The notes beneath the pieces were generated by a model, which saw nothing but the letters and a program-made list of their open reading frames with translations, did no database searches and had not been told where the DNA came from. Below, piece by piece: positions 531-16,384 of a stretch of 47,568 nucleotides of DNA (the first letter of the stretch is position 1; each line of letters begins with the position of its first letter). Position numbers and translations under genes: made by a program. This DNA comes from an uncultured Mycolicibacterium sp. (lineage in GTDB: Bacteria > Actinomycetota > Actinomycetes > Mycobacteriales > Mycobacteriaceae), in the NCBI GenBank assembly GCA_945957405.1, contig CAMFLL010000008.1, positions 1-47,568 on the forward strand, read 5' to 3'.

Positions 531-559
531 AGATTATGTTCTGCAATGCGGAATGTCAA
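531..559 (-). promoter_or_regulatory. Sigma70/SigA-like promoter for the aminotransferase: TTGACA (559-554) N17 TAATCT (536-531)
   Basis: Reverse strand reads AATTGACATTCCGCATTGCAGAACATAATCTG; near-consensus hexamers with 17-bp spacer about 57 bp upstream of the GTG start. Confidence 0.55.
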
Positions 560-565
560 TTCCGA
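537..565 (-). promoter_or_regulatory. Candidate IclR operator TCGGAATTGACATTCCGCATTGCAGAACA overlapping the promoter
   Basis: Perfect inverted repeat CGGAAT-N4-ATTCCG (549-564) overlapping the -35; same motif recurs at 11696-11724 in the same orientation relative to the downstream gene. Confidence 0.6.
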
Positions 566-2902: not shown

Positions 2903-2917
2903 TGAAGATTCCGCTCA

Positions 2918-2945
2918 TCGAAATATAGTTCCGTCATACGGAATA
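2918..2945 (+). promoter_or_regulatory. Candidate IclR operator variant (TCGAAATATAGTTCCGTCATACGGAATA)
   Basis: Contains TTCCGTC-A-TACGGAA near-perfect palindrome and a degenerate CGGAAT-N4-ATTCCG, in the AKR/malate synthase divergent intergenic region. Confidence 0.4.
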
Positions 2946-2957
2946 CGAAGGGTTGAT

Positions 2958-4544
2958 ATGCCTGAATCCGCCGCTGCCATACAGGTGACCGCCCCGATGC
3001 TCCCGCGATTCGACGAGATTCTCACGCCGTGCGCTATGCAATTGATGTCGGTACTGCACAAAGCGTTTGGAGCACGGCGTCACGAATTGCTCGCCGCTCG
3101 CCGACAGCGTGTAGTCGCGATAACTGAGGGTGCAACCCTCGGATTTCTGCCCGAGACCGCCGCGATCCGCGACGATCCGACTTGGCGTGTTGCCGAGCCC
3201 GCCGCTGGACTGATCGACCGACGCGCCGAGATCACCGGGCCGACGGATCGCAAAATGACCATCAACGCTCTGAATTCGGGCGCGCGGGTATGGCTGGCTG
3301 ATCATGAGGATGCCAACACACCGTTGTGGGAAAACGTCATTGGCGGTCAGTTGAATCTGCTCGATGCCATCAACCGCAACATCGATTTCACCAATGAATT
3401 TGGGAAAAGCTATGCGCTACGGCCGGACCCGGAGCTTGCCACCATCGTCATGCGTCCCCGCGGCTGGCACCTTCCGGAAAAGCACATGCTGCTCGACGGT
3501 GAACCCACCTCCGGTAGCTTGGTCGACTTCGCGCTCTACATGGCAAACTGTGGCCAGCTGCAAATCGACCGTGGCCTCGGGCCCTACTTCTATCTGCCGA
3601 AGCTTGAATCCTATCTCGAAGCACGACTCTGGAACGACGTATTTATTCTGACCCAGGACTTTCTAGGCATACCGCAAGGCACCGTTCGTGCCACCGTGCT
3701 CATCGAAACGTACCCTGCCGCTTTCGAAATGGAGGAGATCCTCTACGAGTTGCGGGATCACTCCGCTGGGCTCAACGCCGGTCGGTGGGACTATATGTTC
3801 AGCGCCATCAAAATGTTTCGAACCCGGGGTAAGGAATTTCTTCTGCCAGACCGTAATTCCGTAACAATGACTGTGCCATTCATGCGGGCCTACACCGAGC
3901 TGCTGGTTCGCACCTGCCACAAGCGTGGCGCGCACGCGATCGGCGGCATGGCGGCGTTCATTCCCAGCAAGGACCCCGAGATCAACATGCAGGCTTATAG
4001 CAAAGTGCGATCCGATAAGAGTCGCGAAGCCGCGGACGGCTTCGACGGCTCGTGGGTGGCCCACCCGGCGATGGTCGACCTTTGTACTCAGGCGTTCGAC
4101 GAGGTGCTTGGCGAACGGCCAAATCAACTCGACCGACTTCACGATGACGTGCATGTGACGGCCGAAGAGCTGCTCGACATTGCCGCAACCCCCGGGACCG
4201 TGACCGAGGCGGGCCTGCGCAACAACATCAGTGTGGCCATCCAATATTTAGCCTCCTGGTTGCGCGGCGTCGGCGCGGTTGGCATCTTCAACATGATGGA
4301 AGATGCTGCAACCGCTGAGATTTCACGATCTCAGATCTGGCAGTGGCTACACAATGACGTTGTCTTGGACACCGGTGAGAACGTGACCAAGGCGCTGGTC
4401 GAGCGGCTGGTCGACGAAGAGATTGCTGCTCTCGGAGGGTCGCCGGATCACTACGACGAGGCCAAGTCGACATTCTTGGAGGTCGCCGTCGCCGACGATT
4501 TTGCCGACTTCCTCACTTTGCCCGCCTATGCACGGATGGCGTGA
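2958..4544 (+). CDS. aceB: Malate synthase A
   Basis: TGPTDRKMTINALNSGARVWLADHEDANTPLWENVIGGQLNL, MRPRGWHLPEKH, ATVLIETYPAAFEMEEILYELRDHSAGLNAGRWDYMFSAIK, VPFMRAYTELLVRTCHKRGAHAIGGMAAFIPSKD. ORF track start at 2655 is too early; ATG 2958 fits. Confidence 0.95.
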   Translation: MPESAAAIQVTAPMLPRFDEILTPCAMQLMSVLHKAFGARRHELLAARRQRVVAITEGATLGFLPETAAIRDDPTWRVAEPAAGLIDRRAEITGPTDRKMTINALNSGARVWLADHEDANTPLWENVIGGQLNLLDAINRNIDFTNEFGKSYALRPDPELATIVMRPRGWHLPEKHMLLDGEPTSGSLVDFALYMANCGQLQIDRGLGPYFYLPKLESYLEARLWNDVFILTQDFLGIPQGTVRATVLIETYPAAFEMEEILYELRDHSAGLNAGRWDYMFSAIKMFRTRGKEFLLPDRNSVTMTVPFMRAYTELLVRTCHKRGAHAIGGMAAFIPSKDPEINMQAYSKVRSDKSREAADGFDGSWVAHPAMVDLCTQAFDEVLGERPNQLDRLHDDVHVTAEELLDIAATPGTVTEAGLRNNISVAIQYLASWLRGVGAVGIFNMMEDAATAEISRSQIWQWLHNDVVLDTGENVTKALVERLVDEEIAALGGSPDHYDEAKSTFLEVAVADDFADFLTLPAYARMA

Positions 4545-4700: not shown

Positions 4701-5960
4701 ATGACTGGCGACTGTGCAGCCCGTACCGGTCCCCGGACGGCGTTACGGCTCATCATCGACCCGGCCTTCGGTGCGTTGTTCTGGGGCAAATTCATGTCTT
4801 CGTCGGGGACGTGGATGCACGGCATCGTCGCCGCGGTGGTGATCTATCAGCTCACCGCGTCGGCGTTGATGGTGGGACTCGTCGGAGTAGCGCAGTTCGG
4901 GCCGCAGATCGCATTGAGTCCGCTCAGTGGTCGGTGGGCCGATCAAGGTAACCCTATCCGGCAGATGCTTGTCGGCAGGTTGATGTGCGCAATAGGCTCA
5001 GTTTCGGCGGCGGTGTCAGTCTCACTGTCACAAGGGATGTCGGGAGCGGTCACAGCCCTTTCAGTGCTAGTGGGAACGGTTCTGGTCGGAATAGGCTTCG
5101 TGATCGGCGGTCCGGCTATGCAGTCGGTGGTTCCGAAGTTGCTGAGGGCGGGTGAGCTGGCAACCGCCATGACGCTCAACACCATACCTTTGACGGTCGC
5201 TCGGGTCTTCGGACCGGCCACCGGCGCGTTTCTGTTGTCTCAGCTCGGCGCCACTCCGGCCTTCGCCATCAGCGGTTGTGGCCATCTGGTGTTTGCGATT
5301 CTGCTTGTGGTCGTGAACTTTCCACCTTTGAAGAACGAACCGCGCCCCGGTGTCGATTACCGGGTGCGCGCTGCACTGCGTTATGTGTGGAAGGATCGGA
5401 CGCTACTGTTGCTGCTGGTGGCTATCGGAGTGGTTGGATTCGGTTCAGATCCGTCCATCACACTCGCGCCCTCGGTCGCCGCGGAACTCGGTGGCCGCAC
5501 TGAATCAGTCGGCCTATTGTCCGCCGCGTTCGGTACTGGTGCGGCGCTCGGCCTTGCGGTTCTCGGAATCTTGCGGTCCCGATTGTCCTCGGCACTTACG
5601 TCGTCAATGGCGTTGTGGCTGTTGGCGATCGGCCTGGCGCTGGTAGGCGTCGGTCATTGGCTTGCCCTGGCTATGAGTGGGTTTGCCTTGGCCGGATGTG
5701 GTTTCTCGTGGGGATTGACAGGACTGAGCACACTGGTACAAAGCCGTGTCCCCGACGAGCTGAGAGGACGGATCATGGCGCTGTGGTCGGTGGGTTTTGC
5801 CGGCGCAAGACCCGTCGCGGGCGCGATCCTTGGCAGTACTGCCGATTTGGTCTCGCTTCGGGCCGCTTTTCTCCTCGCGGTGACACTCACGGCTATGACG
5901 GCGCTGTTGTGTCGGCCGGGTGTGTTGTCGCGACCGGGACCGGTTCCGCTCATCCGGTGA
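4701..5960 (+). CDS. MFS transporter (MFS_3/enterobactin-exporter-like)
   Basis: About 12 hydrophobic helices; FGALFWGKFMSSSGTWMHGIVAAVVIYQLTASALMVGLVG and VPDELRGRIMALWSVGFAGARPVAGAI motifs. Confidence 0.88.
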   Translation: MTGDCAARTGPRTALRLIIDPAFGALFWGKFMSSSGTWMHGIVAAVVIYQLTASALMVGLVGVAQFGPQIALSPLSGRWADQGNPIRQMLVGRLMCAIGSVSAAVSVSLSQGMSGAVTALSVLVGTVLVGIGFVIGGPAMQSVVPKLLRAGELATAMTLNTIPLTVARVFGPATGAFLLSQLGATPAFAISGCGHLVFAILLVVVNFPPLKNEPRPGVDYRVRAALRYVWKDRTLLLLLVAIGVVGFGSDPSITLAPSVAAELGGRTESVGLLSAAFGTGAALGLAVLGILRSRLSSALTSSMALWLLAIGLALVGVGHWLALAMSGFALAGCGFSWGLTGLSTLVQSRVPDELRGRIMALWSVGFAGARPVAGAILGSTADLVSLRAAFLLAVTLTAMTALLCRPGVLSRPGPVPLIR

Positions 5961-9709: not shown

Positions 9710-10725
9710 CGCGTTGCCTCCTCGACCCCGCAGTCGAGCGGGTAGTTTGCCAGTTCATTGAGTTCGGTTAGCGTTCTCTCGGCGATTTCGAACCCATCGC
9801 GGTCAATCTGTTCTCGCCGGCGCGTCGAGCGGTCACCGGGCACGCTGACAGGGTGATCCGGATGCTGCGCCGGTGAGTCGCGGACTTCCTGCAGGTACTG
9901 GCTGACAACGTCGACAATGGCCGGGGCGCTCGTCATGCCGGCGTCGTCCAACTCCGGGCAGTCGATCACCACGAAAAGGTCACCTTTCGTGCTGTGGTGC
10001 TCGACGTCGAGTGTGCCCCTGACCGCTGTGCCCAGTGCTGTACCGGTCACCGTCGCGATGAGCACCTCGAGTGCCAGACCCAGCGCGTAGCCCTTCGGGC
10101 CGCCGAAGGGAGCGATCGACCCCTTCCTGGCGGCCGCCGCATCCGTCGTTGGCTCGCCCCTTTCGTCAAGGGCCCAGCCCTCGGGTATCGGCACCTGCCG
10201 ACGCGCATGGTCGACGACCTTGCCCATCGACACGACACCGGTAGACATGTCGATGACAAGCGGGTGCGGAGTGGCAGGGACGCCGATGGCAAGTGGATTA
10301 GTCCCCAGCATGGCCGCGCGCCCGCCCCACGGGTGGACGAGGGCTTCGCTGGTACAGGTGGCGATCACACACTGGCCGCGTAGAGCGATCCGCTCGGCAT
10401 AGGGCGCGAGCATGCCGAGATGGCTCGTCCGACGCAGGGCAGCTACGGCGATACCAGTCTGTCTTGCGCATTCGGATGCTGCCTCAAGGGCTCTGTTAGC
10501 GACGACGGGACCCAGACCATTGCAACCGTCTACGGACAAAAATGCCGAGCGGGGCCAGCGATGGCGTCCTGCTGTGGTGGGGTCGATGAGCCCGGCGCGG
10601 ATCCGGGAGATGAGCGTCGGAAGGCGCAAGAGACCGTGCGACGGATGGCCACCGAGCTCACCGAAAATTAGCAGGTCAGCCTGCGCCTGAGCGAATTCAG
10701 TTGGTGTTCCAGCGTTTTGCAACAC
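9706..10725 (-). CDS. Malate/(S)-lactate dehydrogenase-type (Ldh2 family) oxidoreductase; true 5' end uncertain
   Basis: GELGGHPSHGLLRLP, GLGPVVANRALEAASECARQTGIAVAALRRTSHLGMLAPYAERIA, AMLGTNPLAIGVPA, VIDMSTGVVSMGKV, GPKGYALGLALEVL. The only canonical in-frame start is GTG 10725, which truncates the N-terminal helix. Stop overlaps the Fe-ADH start (ATGA). Confidence 0.88.
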   Translation of the reverse strand: MLQNAGTPTEFAQAQADLLIFGELGGHPSHGLLRLPTLISRIRAGLIDPTTAGRHRWPRSAFLSVDGCNGLGPVVANRALEAASECARQTGIAVAALRRTSHLGMLAPYAERIALRGQCVIATCTSEALVHPWGGRAAMLGTNPLAIGVPATPHPLVIDMSTGVVSMGKVVDHARRQVPIPEGWALDERGEPTTDAAAARKGSIAPFGGPKGYALGLALEVLIATVTGTALGTAVRGTLDVEHHSTKGDLFVVIDCPELDDAGMTSAPAIVDVVSQYLQEVRDSPAQHPDHPVSVPGDRSTRRREQIDRDGFEIAERTLTELNELANYPLDCGVEEATR

Positions 10726-10754
10726 TCGGATCGCGAGTGCCCGCGCCTCTGCGA

Positions 10755-10766
10755 CTTGTATACGAG
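10755..10766. promoter_or_regulatory. Candidate GntR operator CTTGTATACGAG
   Basis: 12-bp palindrome with one mismatched pair (CTYGTATACRAG) between ldh2-like gene and divergent FadR-type GntR; followed by TATAAT at 10794-10799 on the + strand. Confidence 0.4.
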
Positions 10767-10845
10767 TGATGAGCCCTCCCGGATCAAATACGATATAATT
10801 GCCCAGTCTGATGCCCGATTCTGCTGTCTGTCAAGGGGACTCGAT

Positions 10846-11550
10846 ATGGAACTGCCGCCCGAACGCCGCACGGGGAAGGTGTCAGCAGCCGAAGCTGTGG
10901 TGTCACTCGCTGAGCTTCCGACAGCGGACGGCGTTTATCGCGAACTGCTCAGTCGCTTGGTCAACCGGACAATTGCACCCGGGGACAAGATCAGCATCGA
11001 CGGAACCAGCCGCGAATTGGGCGTGTCGCAGACCCCTATCCGCGAAGCGCTCGTGCGGCTCGCCTCGGAGCGTATGGTGACCCGCGTCCACTTATCCGGT
11101 TTCCGAGCCGCTCCGTTGCTGACCAGCGAAGAGTTCGAGAAACTCTTCGAGATGAGACTGCTCGTCGAACCATACCTCGCCGAACTTGCAGCCACCCGGC
11201 ACACAGTTGAACAGGCCGAACGGATGAATGAGCTGGTCGAACAAATGCGCCTGCTCGGAGCGAAGATAGGCCGCACCACCTACGGCGAGTTTGCCAGTGA
11301 GGACGCGTGGCTGCACGATCTCATCGCCGAGGCCGCGGACAGCCCGCCATTGCGAAACTCGCTGTTACAACTGCACGCGCACGTCCATGTGTTCCGCCTG
11401 CGCTATGACGCGCGCGTACCACTCGATGCCCTGGATGAGCATGACGACGTGCTCTCGGCGATCGTCGAACGCCGGCCGACCGCTGCATCTGGAGCTATGC
11501 GAGAGCATCTGCGGGCATCACGTGCGCGGTTGTCGAAGGCGTTTGACTGA
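10846..11550 (+). CDS. GntR-family regulator (FadR/FCD type)
   Basis: VYRELLSRLVNRTIAPGDKISIDGTSRELGVSQTPIREALVRLASERMV wHTH; FCD domain FEMRLLVEPYLAELAA...EDAWLHDLIAEAADSPPL...EHDDVLSAIVERRPTAASGAMREHL. Confidence 0.92.
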   Translation: MELPPERRTGKVSAAEAVVSLAELPTADGVYRELLSRLVNRTIAPGDKISIDGTSRELGVSQTPIREALVRLASERMVTRVHLSGFRAAPLLTSEEFEKLFEMRLLVEPYLAELAATRHTVEQAERMNELVEQMRLLGAKIGRTTYGEFASEDAWLHDLIAEAADSPPLRNSLLQLHAHVHVFRLRYDARVPLDALDEHDDVLSAIVERRPTAASGAMREHLRASRARLSKAFD

Positions 11551-11660: not shown

Positions 11661-11689
11661 TTGACACAACAAGAATGGAAGCGTTAGAT
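11661..11689 (+). promoter_or_regulatory. Possible promoter for tctC: TTGACA N17 TTAGAT
   Basis: TTGACA (11661-11666), 17-bp spacer, weak -10 TTAGAT (11684-11689); operator-like palindrome immediately downstream. Confidence 0.4.
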
Positions 11690-11695
11690 CCATTA

Positions 11696-11724
11696 TCGGA
11701 ATACAAATTCCGCATTGCGTAACA
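11696..11724 (+). promoter_or_regulatory. Candidate IclR operator TCGGAATACAAATTCCGCATTGCGTAACA
   Basis: CGGAAT-N4-ATTCCG perfect inverted repeat overlapping TTCCGCA-T-TGCGTAA; near-identical to 537-565 (reverse strand). Confidence 0.6.
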
Positions 11725-11789: not shown

Positions 11790-12818
11790 ATGAAGCTTTG
11801 CGGCAGGACCACAGGTCTACCGCGCGCCCGCTCGACTCGGATACTCGTGGCGGTCGCCTCAGTCGTTGCATTTGCGCTCGCCGCGTGCGCTCCGACTTCG
11901 ACCGGCGGGAATTCCGGGCAGGCTAGTGATGCAGCATGGGAGCCAACCCGACCGGTGACGTTTGTCGTAGCGACCGGTGTCGGCGGCGGAGGAGATCTGT
12001 TCGGCCGGGCAGCAGCCCAAGGCATCAGCACAGCGGACCCAAAGGCGAAGATCGCAGTCGAAAATCACACCGGCGGTGACGAAGTCGTCGGTGTCAGCTA
12101 CGCGCTGTCGCACAAAGACGATCCGTACTACATGTTCGTCGCCAACAGCTCACTATTGCTCCAGCCCTACAGCATCAAGCCGCCGCCGGACTATTCGTGG
12201 GAGAGCTTCACACCCGTGGCTGAACTGGCCGAAGACCAGCAGGTACTCGTGGTACCGGCGAACTCGCCGTACAACAGCCTCACAGATCTGCTCGACGCGG
12301 CGAAGAACCAGAAGCTGCGAATCGCCGTGACCTCTGCGACAGGCACCGACAACGCAGTGGCACGACTGCTGGAGAAGAACCAGAACGTCGAGTTCCAGCA
12401 TGTGATTCTCGAATCTGGGGCGTCCGGAGTAGCAGGTATGTTGGCCGGCAACGTCGACTTCTCGATCCTGAATCCGTCCGAGGCCAAAGGTCAGATCGAC
12501 GCCAAAACCCTACGGCCCCTGGCAGTCTTCTCCGATAAGCGGTACGACGCCGGCACCGGGCTGGAGAACATCCCGACCGCCAAGGAACAAGGTGTGGATG
12601 TGGTCTTCGTTCAATTTCGTGGTCTGATGGCGCCGGGCAAGATCACCGACCAGCAGCTCGCTTACTGGGCCAAGGTCTCCGAAGACTGGACCAAGACTCA
12701 GGACTACCAGGACTACATCAAGAACAACTCGCTGCAGCCAGCTTTCCGCACCGGTTCGGAATTCGCGGATCTGCTGAAGTCGCAGTCGGATACGTTCAAG
12801 GAGACGTTCAGTGACTGA
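11790..12818 (+). CDS. tctC: Tripartite tricarboxylate transporter substrate-binding lipoprotein (TctC/Bug family)
   Basis: Signal peptide with lipobox (FALAAC); RPVTFVVATGVGGGGDLFGRAAAQGI, AVTSATGTDNAVARLL, ESGASGVAGMLAGNVDFSI. Confidence 0.9.
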   Translation: MKLCGRTTGLPRARSTRILVAVASVVAFALAACAPTSTGGNSGQASDAAWEPTRPVTFVVATGVGGGGDLFGRAAAQGISTADPKAKIAVENHTGGDEVVGVSYALSHKDDPYYMFVANSSLLLQPYSIKPPPDYSWESFTPVAELAEDQQVLVVPANSPYNSLTDLLDAAKNQKLRIAVTSATGTDNAVARLLEKNQNVEFQHVILESGASGVAGMLAGNVDFSILNPSEAKGQIDAKTLRPLAVFSDKRYDAGTGLENIPTAKEQGVDVVFVQFRGLMAPGKITDQQLAYWAKVSEDWTKTQDYQDYIKNNSLQPAFRTGSEFADLLKSQSDTFKETFSD

Positions 12819-13410
12819 CCCGTCAGCCGATGCGTCGGCGGCCATCCGGGAACGCGAACCGCGTTTCCGGCGTGGCTTGCCGTCGGTTGTCACGGGCGAT
12901 CGAATCTTTGCCGTCGGGCTGCTGATCGTCGGTGTGATCGCCGTGGTGCAGGGGCTCGGCTACGGCTTCATCCGGCCCGACGGAATCATCGGACCTGGCT
13001 TCACGCCGATTGTCTTCGGAGTGATCTTATTGTTCTGCACGGTGATGGTTCTGCTGCGCTCGTTCCGTGATCCGGGCGAGAAGCCGGTCTCACTGATCGA
13101 GTCCCTGGCGGAGCAGACCATGCTTGAGGCCCAGGATGATGTGGCGCCAACCGACCGTGCTGGTAGCGAGCGGTCGGCGCTGTTAGTCGCCGTCGGTATC
13201 GGCATCGCGTTGTGGCTAGCAGGGTGGATCGGACTTATCCCCGCACTATCCGTCCTGGTCTTCGCGATCCTACGATGGATCGAGAAAGAGTCCTGGATCA
13301 AGTCGATCCTGATCTCGCTGCTTCTCGGCGTCGCGGCGTGGCTCATCTTCACTTACTTCCTGCAGGTGCCGTTGGATTTCGGCGTCATCAGCCTCTACTG
13401 GCACATCTGA
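12811..13410 (+). CDS. tctB: Tripartite tricarboxylate transporter TctB-family small membrane protein
   Basis: GTG start overlapping tctC stop; four hydrophobic segments, position between tctC and tctA. Confidence 0.85.
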   Translation: MTDPSADASAAIREREPRFRRGLPSVVTGDRIFAVGLLIVGVIAVVQGLGYGFIRPDGIIGPGFTPIVFGVILLFCTVMVLLRSFRDPGEKPVSLIESLAEQTMLEAQDDVAPTDRAGSERSALLVAVGIGIALWLAGWIGLIPALSVLVFAILRWIEKESWIKSILISLLLGVAAWLIFTYFLQVPLDFGVISLYWHI

Positions 13411-13465
13411 CGTGCCGAGCCGGCCACCGATTCGGCATCCATAACTAGAGATTTGGCGTTTCTAC

Positions 13466-15148
13466 ATGGAACTGTTGACCCATATCGCCACCGGTTTTGG
13501 CGACGCATTCACGCCGCTGAACCTCTTTTACTGTTTCCTCGGCGTCATCATGGGGACCCTGGTCGGCATCCTGCCGGGCCTAGGGCCGGCAACCGCGATC
13601 GCACTGCTGCTTCCGCTCACCCTCGGGCTGCAGCCGTTGCCCGCCCTGATCATGCTGGCCGGGATCTACTACGGCAGTATGCACGGCGGTATCATCACCG
13701 CGGTTCTAATTGCCACCCCGGGTGAATCCTCGGCAGTAGTCACGGTAATGGATGGCCACACACTAGCCCGAATGGGTAGGGCGGGGCCAGTTTTGGCGAT
13801 GAGCGCGCTGGCCAGCTTCTTAGCCGGCACGCTCACCATTCCGTTTGTGATGATATTCGTGCAGGTGCTCGGCACGATCAGCCTGCACTTCGGGCCGCCG
13901 GAGATCACGGTGATCATCCTGTTCGGCCTTGTCGGTGTCGCCGGGTTCGTCGGCAAGAATCGCTTCAAGGGTTACGCCATGGCAGCGGCCGGACTCCTGA
14001 TTGCCGCCGTTGGGCTAGATACCGGCACCGGCACACCGCGTTTCACGTTCGGTATCACCGATATGTATGGCGGGATCGATTTCCTCTACGCGGTGATCGG
14101 TCTCTTCGCGCTCGGCGAGGTCTTGCATTCGATCGGTGTCGGACAGCCCAATCCGATTCGGACCCGGCTGCGCGACATGGTGATCACGATGGACGACTGG
14201 CGGCATTCCCGGTTACCGATTCTGCGCGGGGGCTTCCTCGGCCTGTTCCTGGGTATGATGCCAGGCGCTGGGGCCACGGTCTCGTCTTTCTTGGCCTATG
14301 ACATGGAGCGAAGGATCAGCGCGCGCAAAGGCCGGGTGCTGGGTACCGGCATGATCGAAGGGGTTTGTGGGCCCCAAGCCGCTGACAATGCCGCGGTCAA
14401 CGGAGCGTTTGTACCGACGCTGTCTCTTGGTATTCCGGGTTCCGCGGCGACCGCAATCGTGCTCGGCGGCATGCTGTTACACGGCATTCAGCCGGGTCCG
14501 CTGCTGATGACCACAGAGCCTCGGCTGGTGTGGGGTCTGTTGGCGTCGTTCTACATCGGCAATCTGATGTTGGTGCTGATCAACGTGCCGCTGGCTCCGC
14601 TGTTCGCGTCGATTCTGCGCGTCAAGTACTCCTACATGTATCCGGCGATCATTGTGTTGTGTTTCATTGGGGCGTTTTCGGTCGACAACCACATGACCGG
14701 TGTGTGGCTGGCTTTCATCTTCGGAATCGTAGGTTGGTTCGCCGTCAAGTATGATTACCCTTTGGCGCCAATGATTCTCGGCGTGATCCTCGGTAGTCCT
14801 TTCGAACGTTCAATCGTTCAGAGTTCCGAGATCGGTCGCGGTAGCTTGACTGTCTATCTCCACCATCCGATCGCTATGGCGTTGCTTGCCGTCGTGGTGG
14901 CGATGGTGGTGCTCCCGACGGTGATCTCCCGACTACGACGCAGGGCAGGCAAGGCGCCGATCACCGAGCTGGTTGTCTCGCCGGATGTCGCTGCGGCGCA
15001 GTCATCGTCGATCGAGAACGAGGATGGGACCACCGAACCAAGCAAGTCTGGGGCACGTCTCCGCGGCACCGATTCGGAGCGGCCCGCCCCAACTGAGAAA
15101 GGAGATGACGCCCCGCTCACAACCAGGGGGCAGTTTGGGAAGAAATAG
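13466..15148 (+). CDS. tctA: Tripartite tricarboxylate transporter TctA-family permease
   Basis: GVIMGTLVGILPGLGPATAIALLLPLT, MHGGIITAVLIATPGESSAVVTVMDGHTLARMGRAGPVLAMSALASFLAGTL, GVCGPQAADNAAVNGAFVPTLSLGIPGSAATAIVLGGMLLHGIQPGP. Confidence 0.95.
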   Translation: MELLTHIATGFGDAFTPLNLFYCFLGVIMGTLVGILPGLGPATAIALLLPLTLGLQPLPALIMLAGIYYGSMHGGIITAVLIATPGESSAVVTVMDGHTLARMGRAGPVLAMSALASFLAGTLTIPFVMIFVQVLGTISLHFGPPEITVIILFGLVGVAGFVGKNRFKGYAMAAAGLLIAAVGLDTGTGTPRFTFGITDMYGGIDFLYAVIGLFALGEVLHSIGVGQPNPIRTRLRDMVITMDDWRHSRLPILRGGFLGLFLGMMPGAGATVSSFLAYDMERRISARKGRVLGTGMIEGVCGPQAADNAAVNGAFVPTLSLGIPGSAATAIVLGGMLLHGIQPGPLLMTTEPRLVWGLLASFYIGNLMLVLINVPLAPLFASILRVKYSYMYPAIIVLCFIGAFSVDNHMTGVWLAFIFGIVGWFAVKYDYPLAPMILGVILGSPFERSIVQSSEIGRGSLTVYLHHPIAMALLAVVVAMVVLPTVISRLRRRAGKAPITELVVSPDVAAAQSSSIENEDGTTEPSKSGARLRGTDSERPAPTEKGDDAPLTTRGQFGKK

Positions 15149-15214: not shown

Positions 15215-16384
15215 TTGAAGATCACCAAAATCGACACGCACATCGTGTCGGTACCACTGGCGAATCCCTGGGAGATGGGAATCGGGACCGCTTACCGGCG
15301 CGATGAGCTGCTCGTGCTGGTCCACACCGATGAAGGCCTGACCGGTCTCGGCTCGGCTTACCATGCTCATGCCGCGCAAGCAGTCAAAGGCATCATCGAC
15401 TACAAGGTGGCGCCGGTTGTCCTCGGCGAGGATCCACTTGCCATTCAGCAGATTTGGGAAAAGCTCTTCTACAGCACCGTCTACATCGGCTCCGCCGGGG
15501 TGCAGGCCCTGGCGGGCGTCGATATCGCGCTCTGGGACATTCTGGGCAAGGTCACCGGACAGCCGATCGCAACGTTGATCGGTGGCGGTGGCGTTGAGAA
15601 GATGGCGGCCTACGTCGGCTGCATGAGCATGGGCCACAAACCACTGCCCGACTTGCAAAAAGAGGCCCAGGGTTATGTTGCCGAGGGCTATAAGGCGATC
15701 AAGGTGCGCGGCGGCGCCGGCATCCGGACCGACCTGGAGGCGATGGCGGCCGTACGGGAAGCGGTCGGACCCGACATCGACCTGATGATCGACGTCAACG
15801 CCCGCTACAGCTGGGCCGAAGCCGTTGAGGTGTCAAAGAAGCTGCAGGCGCTCGACGCGTTCTGGCTGGAAGATCCGTTCGATTTCAGCATCCCCAACCA
15901 CCATGACGACGTGGGCAAGTTGCGCGGCTTCGGACTGACGCCCCTCGCATCTGGTGGGAACGTCTACAGCCGGTTCGACTACCGCAATCTGATCAGCAGC
16001 GGCGGCGTGGATTTCATCACGCCCGACGCGGTCAAGGCCGGTGGCATCTCCGAGTCCTTGAAGATTGCCACGTTGGCCAGCGCGTACGACGTCCAGGTGG
16101 CGTTGCACACGCTCAACGGACTGGGGCAGGTCGCCAACGTGCACTTGGCTGCGGGTATCCCGGCCCACGTACGTGGTTACGTCGAGTGGGATCCGACGTC
16201 GCCCAACGAAATGCGTGACCAGATGCTCAAGACGCCGATCAAGGTCGAGAACGGCGATCTGTACGTTCCGACCGGACCGGGCTTGGGCACTGAGCTCGAC
16301 ATGGACTTCGTCAAGGAGTACGAGCTCAAAGAAGGTGGCGTCGAGATCGCGGGCAAGCCGCGCGGGCGTCGCTGGAACAGCTGA
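15215..16384 (+). CDS. Enolase-superfamily (mandelate racemase/muconate lactonizing) protein
   Basis: TTG start preceded by AAGGAG; GVQALAGVDIALWDILGKVTGQPIATLIGG, YKAIKVRGGAGIRTDLEAMAAVREAVGPDIDLMIDVNARYSWAEA, FWLEDPF, TPDAVKAGGISESLKIA, ALHTLNGLGQVANVHLAAG. Confidence 0.92.
   Translation: MKITKIDTHIVSVPLANPWEMGIGTAYRRDELLVLVHTDEGLTGLGSAYHAHAAQAVKGIIDYKVAPVVLGEDPLAIQQIWEKLFYSTVYIGSAGVQALAGVDIALWDILGKVTGQPIATLIGGGGVEKMAAYVGCMSMGHKPLPDLQKEAQGYVAEGYKAIKVRGGAGIRTDLEAMAAVREAVGPDIDLMIDVNARYSWAEAVEVSKKLQALDAFWLEDPFDFSIPNHHDDVGKLRGFGLTPLASGGNVYSRFDYRNLISSGGVDFITPDAVKAGGISESLKIATLASAYDVQVALHTLNGLGQVANVHLAAGIPAHVRGYVEWDPTSPNEMRDQMLKTPIKVENGDLYVPTGPGLGTELDMDFVKEYELKEGGVEIAGKPRGRRWNS

Follow-up and report, generated by a model that had tools for sequence, protein, structure and literature searches.

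Predicted operators of an IclR-family regulator at four promoters of a glyoxylate-linked mycobacterial locus

The stretch of DNA analyzed here (47,568 nucleotides, termed the window) carries two near-identical 29-bp elements, one in front of a glyoxylate aminotransferase gene and one in front of a transporter gene cluster, which raises the question of which protein reads them and which genes it controls. A first-pass annotation had assigned both elements to the local IclR-family regulator as an operator bound by two dimers. This attribution is correct in the main, and the operator set is larger than described there. With good confidence we propose that the IclR protein encoded at 674-1462 (−) has operators at four promoters, where repression would be relieved by a 2-oxo acid, most likely glyoxylate.

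Both 29-mers are present base for base, at 537-565 on the reverse strand and at 11696-11724 on the forward strand. They share 23 of 23 fixed positions and run in the same direction relative to their own downstream gene, as had been reported. The first lies 62 bp before the GTG at 474 (−) of a BhcA-related class-V glyoxylate aminotransferase, of which the N-terminal 158 amino acids are encoded at 1-474 (−), the gene being cut by the contig end. The second lies 65 bp before the ATG at 11790 of tctC, the first of the tripartite tricarboxylate transporter genes tctC-tctB-tctA (11790-15148, +). Scanning with the pattern TCGGAATnnnnATTCCGCATTGCnnAACA (23 fixed positions, up to three mismatches allowed) returned two matches in the window, with none expected from 100 shuffles, and two across the 7.8 Mb Mycobacterium genome, both of them in the window. 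The reversed control of this pattern gave no match in the 7.8 Mb genome, and the pattern itself was absent among 198 genomes of relatives. A search with the half-palindrome GGAATnnnnATTCCGCA yielded weak additional matches and nothing more. The letters of the 29-mer are specific to the host genome, and the code of boxes within it is common to relatives. A chance likeness of two intergenic stretches, for which the low copy number is all that speaks, is refuted statistically: none was expected in the window, no other copy exists in 7.8 Mb, and a weight matrix derived from other species predicts both 29-mers independently, which leaves this explanation with a practically negligible probability.

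The first-pass annotation read each copy as two overlapping palindromes. The two palindromes are instead two pairs with a common middle box, and the 29-mers appear best described as a row of three half-sites, CGGAAT-N4-ATTCCG-N5-CGGAAT, that alternate in direction and of which the third is degenerate. In the predicted aminotransferase operator these are CGGAAT (559-564), ATTCCG (549-554) and CAGAAC (538-543), and in the predicted tctCBA operator CGGAAT (11697-11702), ATTCCG (11707-11712) and CGTAAC (11718-11723); the third box carries two mismatches in six positions in each copy. The same arrangement surfaced before glyoxylate-carboligase-type operons when the inner palindrome was searched near IclR homologues of other mycobacteria. 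Since the three half-sites share the middle box and their centres lie ~10.5 bp apart, about one helical turn, the middle box cannot serve two full dimers at once; occupation by two dimers is not to be expected, and the two-dimer proposal is unsupported at three-box sites. In the published view, three-box sites are occupied through alternative dimerisation or involve an additional half-site, PcaU being an example (PMC8222616). With alternating half-sites of which one pair has the group 1 and the other the group 2 arrangement, with linkage to an iclR gene and with conservation beside IclR relatives, the predicted operator set is an IclR-family element of a kind already described.

The conservation was assessed in 80 relatives of the IclR protein with their surroundings (50-56% identical; Kribbella, Streptomyces, Nocardia, Actinomadura and others). 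Allowing one mismatch at most, the group 1 pair TTCCR-N5-YGGAA was counted at 97 sites in the 450 bp preceding iclR, distributed over 62 of the 80 loci, compared to 2.4 in shuffled sequence. Its density in these regions is 31-fold that of the remaining parts of the loci. Exact matches number 52 near iclR and 9 far from it. The relatives' loci contain 32 pairs of TTCCG-N5-CGGAA and 16 of CGGAA-N6-TTCCG, with mostly 0-4 for other gaps; an untrained count of N4 palindromes in these loci was weakly enriched, the signal appearing after the letters of the boxes and the two spacings had been specified. The motif is associated with the clade of the 674-1462 protein and also with glyoxylate genes. Several of these far exact sites precede malate synthase in two loci (L096, L121), hydroxypyruvate isomerase in a third (L113) and an aminotransferase orthologue in a fourth (L091, Nocardioidaceae), the latter showing in addition weaker N4/N5-spaced boxes ~48 bp before its start. 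Malate synthase is found in the neighborhoods of 30 of the relatives' loci, and glyoxylate carboligase, tartronate-semialdehyde reductase and hydroxypyruvate isomerase occur there as well.

A weight matrix was trained on the 450-bp regions upstream of the 80 relatives, with the window left out, and applied to the window only. Out of ~47,550 positions, the five best were 2929, 1493, 539, 11708 and 2909, with scores from 20.8 to 13.3 and the next-best position at 11.4. All five fall in four promoters, those of malate synthase (2929 and, in tandem, 2909), iclR, the aminotransferase and tctC, and the sites in the window are limited to these four. This selection, the element shared among the relatives' iclR genes and the site before iclR itself together lend good support to the assignment to the local IclR protein. 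The first-pass annotation had found the aminotransferase and tctC sites and missed the other two.

The malate synthase promoter carries a predicted four-box operator at 2908-2944 (+), composed of ATTCCG (2908-2913), CGAAAT (2919-2924), GTTCCG (2928-2933) and CGGAAT (2939-2944). It forms two tandem palindromes with centres 20 bp apart and would be the one operator of the set that suits a tetramer. It precedes the malate synthase A gene (2958-4544, +), whose ATG at 2958 was placed by its ribosome-binding site and family alignment. Upstream of iclR, the two-box palindrome TTCCGTGATGTGGAA (1493-1507, −) lies 30 bp before the start codon and represents a probable autoregulatory operator. An extra CGGAA half-site is found at 1473-1477, about one helical turn farther out than usual, and besides the palindrome a wider inverted repeat, ACGGAAC...TATTCCGT, spans 1473-1507. 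A probable terminator lies at 1749-1780, just past the 3' end of an aldo/keto reductase gene, in the form of a strong inverted repeat of 15 bp (93%) around a 2-nt loop. When three-box placements were counted, 16 of 18 matches were reached at three promoters only, those of the aminotransferase, of tctC and of malate synthase. The exact group 1 palindrome occurs seven times in the whole genome, around chance level, and the promoters of iclR and malate synthase account for two of these occurrences.

The 674-1462 gene encodes a regulator of 262 amino acids with the Pfam domains HTH_IclR (56.3 bits, cut-off 22) and IclR_C (138 bits, cut-off 24). Its best NCBIfam match is BhcR (NF045644) at 179.7 bits, below the cut-off of 350, followed by pcaR_pcaU. 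In E. coli IclR numbering the protein keeps the polar ligand residues D212, S239 and S241 and differs at two of five ligand residues, with G160 replaced by A and A161 by V (I in BhcR); like BhcR, it has lost the greater part of the pyruvate-holding hydrophobic patch of E. coli IclR. Sitting among the sites, with one of them before its own gene and a clade that carries the motif, it is the best candidate for the operator-binding protein. Glyoxylate would be the most likely inducer, because glyoxylate aminotransferase and malate synthase are among the predicted targets.

A second regulator in the window, left out of the first-pass annotation, is the GntR/FCD protein encoded at 10717-11550 (+). 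Only the motif separates its gene from tctC immediately downstream, so that this protein might bind the motif and control tctCBA together with the aminotransferase gene. The motif is however missing from the region separating the GntR gene from the Ldh2 gene, the expected place for an autoregulatory site, and it is of the known IclR three-box type that accompanies IclR relatives. A search of the 80 relative loci at 1e-15 gave no GntR homologue. The evidence counts against GntR as the binder, a reading that we consider very improbable; a GntR/FCD operator was not favoured in view of the fact that the motif does not stand before the GntR gene itself.

Elsewhere in the genome, an AllR-like paralogue is encoded on contig C436 (locus L044, 3195-3956, −), divergent from a neighboring gene that we take to be of the DUF6986 type. 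The paralogue is 53% identical to the 674-1462 protein and has a near-identical recognition helix. On the same contig, a three-box site, TCGGAAGTAAAACTCCGCAATGCGGAAACA, is found at 5425-5453 before a hydantoin/allantoin-racemase-like gene, and on contig C18 (C18:15176; ~1473-1515 in L156) three to four boxes directly precede a hydroxypyruvate isomerase gene, by its boxes a further predicted glyoxylate-pathway target in the same genome. A weak three-box site, CGGAATGGGTATTTCGCAGTGCGCCAT, was also seen on contig C54 (L061:1448-1474), ~145 bp before the start, as placed by alignment, of an aldehyde dehydrogenase-like gene. The near-identical recognition helix and the sites on C436 and C18 would fit a scenario in which the paralogue mainly or also binds the window sites, which would then belong to a glyoxylate/allantoin regulon spanning the genome and not to one confined to the locus. 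Against this stand the four window sites, clustered within 12 kb around the local iclR gene with one directly before it, as well as the usual control by IclR-family proteins of their own gene plus one or two adjacent operons (PMC8222616), and we regard such a scenario as quite unlikely, although the paralogue may cross-bind, which is likely enough to be taken seriously. Only as a tentative idea, and on balance rather unlikely, may both paralogues read one three-box code, with a glyoxylate-sensing IclR protein co-controlling the aminotransferase, malate synthase and a genus-rare transporter, and with alternative dimerisation on the middle box setting the response of each promoter.

The position of the operators relative to promoter elements bears on how the local IclR protein may act. 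The aminotransferase operator covers a promoter-like stretch, TTGACA (554-559)-N17-TAATCT (531-536), already pointed out in the first-pass annotation; the letters are there, while the second hexamer is weak, matching TATAAT at three of six positions. The tctC operator was said to follow immediately upon a TTGACA hexamer, which in fact lies 29 bp before the motif (11661-11666, followed by N17-TTAGAT). The malate synthase operator is downstream of TTGACA (2874-2879)-N17-TATATC (2897-2902). A consensus promoter scanner reported no promoter at these sites, that of the aminotransferase included, and the positions, assigned by eye, are only suggestive. Operators that overlap promoter elements or lie downstream of them point to a repressor-type placement, though the promoter calls are weak.

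In the model that we favor, direct binding, repression over activation and glyoxylate as the effector are all likely. The IclR protein would bind both three-box 29-mers as operators, and very probably also the four-box element at 2908-2944 and the two-box element at 1493-1507. Without inducer, it would occupy the promoter elements or the DNA just downstream of them and thereby block RNA polymerase. A small 2-oxo acid, in all likelihood glyoxylate, would on binding release it from the operators, upon which the glyoxylate aminotransferase, malate synthase, the TctCBA importer and the IclR regulator would be induced together. Action as a BhcR-like activator at these promoters would agree with BhcR as the best curated family and with the requirement of BhcR for bhc expression in Paracoccus. 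The operators nevertheless overlap or follow the (weakly called) promoter elements, whereas the putative BhcR site in Paracoccus lies upstream of the -35 element, so that an activator appears unlikely here, if still worth serious consideration.

Phylogenetic footprinting of the aminotransferase covered eight mycobacterial genomes with close relatives of the enzyme. Boxes are present at -71 of the gene in one of them (L162). The Nocardioidaceae orthologue in L091 has boxes as well, as described above. In L161 and L163 a different IclR protein (27% identity) is encoded next to the aminotransferase gene in divergent orientation, and the half-site is CGGCA/TGCCA in a similar three-box arrangement, reading CGGCA-N5-TGCCA-N5-CGGCA in L161; this operator appears to be a natural specificity variant. 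The aminotransferase loci L164-L170 have neither an adjacent IclR gene nor the motif. The change in half-site where the neighboring IclR protein changes suggests that operator and regulator vary together, based on few independent cases. Footprinting upheld the aminotransferase boxes in this way and did not extend to tctC: homologues of TctC in other genomes reach no more than 38% identity and do not carry the motif, leaving the tctC site without a footprint in the genomes searched.

Among ~395 other Mycobacterium genomes TctC has no close relative (best match 35% identical), and the transporter was for this reason probably acquired from outside. A mandelate racemase/muconate lactonizing (enolase superfamily) enzyme is encoded downstream of tctA (15215-16384, +), probably on the same transcript. 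The remainder of the aminotransferase gene was located on contig C409 (6247), followed by an enolase-superfamily dehydratase-like gene and then by infB-rbfA-nrnA-dinF-like housekeeping genes, an order that suggests the insertion of a metabolic island.

The observation of two similar sites has in this way led to the prediction of a local regulon that comprises four promoters. For most readers the assignment will be an ordinary, well-supported pairing of a regulator with its operators. In addition, the operator set points to a link between a tripartite transporter and glyoxylate assimilation, and its two-, three- and four-box sites for one regulator provide a natural test set for the occupancy of three-box operators.

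Three-box IclR motifs, combining one group 1 and one group 2 pair, emerged from a comparison of 1340 IclR-family proteins; the architecture was predicted in 32 orthologous groups and is known from experiments for PcaU, PobR and HmgR (PMC8222616). The window operators have the same alternating half-sites, one pair fitting GKTYCRYW3-4RYGRAMC except for one box mismatch per copy and the other having the group 2 arrangement, and they lie ~20-80 bp from the start codon, as do most sites in that comparison. They differ in the CGGAAT box, the degenerate third box and the four boxes, with one spacer shortened to 3, at malate synthase.

The bhc system of Paracoccus denitrificans, whose operon is activated by BhcR in vivo (PMC11323563), has in common with the window an IclR protein beside an aspartate-glyoxylate type aminotransferase, an intergenic palindromic site and part of the polar ligand residues. 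In contrast, the window regulator and aminotransferase score below the BhcR and BhcA cut-offs, the targets are malate synthase and TctCBA, and the operators are placed as for a repressor. BhcB and BhcC were not found above cut-off in the ~90% complete genome. A beta-hydroxyaspartate cycle cluster was rejected on these sub-cut-off scores and on the absence of BhcB and BhcC above cut-off. AllR and IclR of E. coli share with the window regulator the glyoxylate-linked targets, the GGAA/TTCC half-sites and a related effector domain, whereas their operators, TGGAAATNATTTCCA and KTTGGAAWAWTWTTCCAAC, are two-box palindromes rich in A/T.
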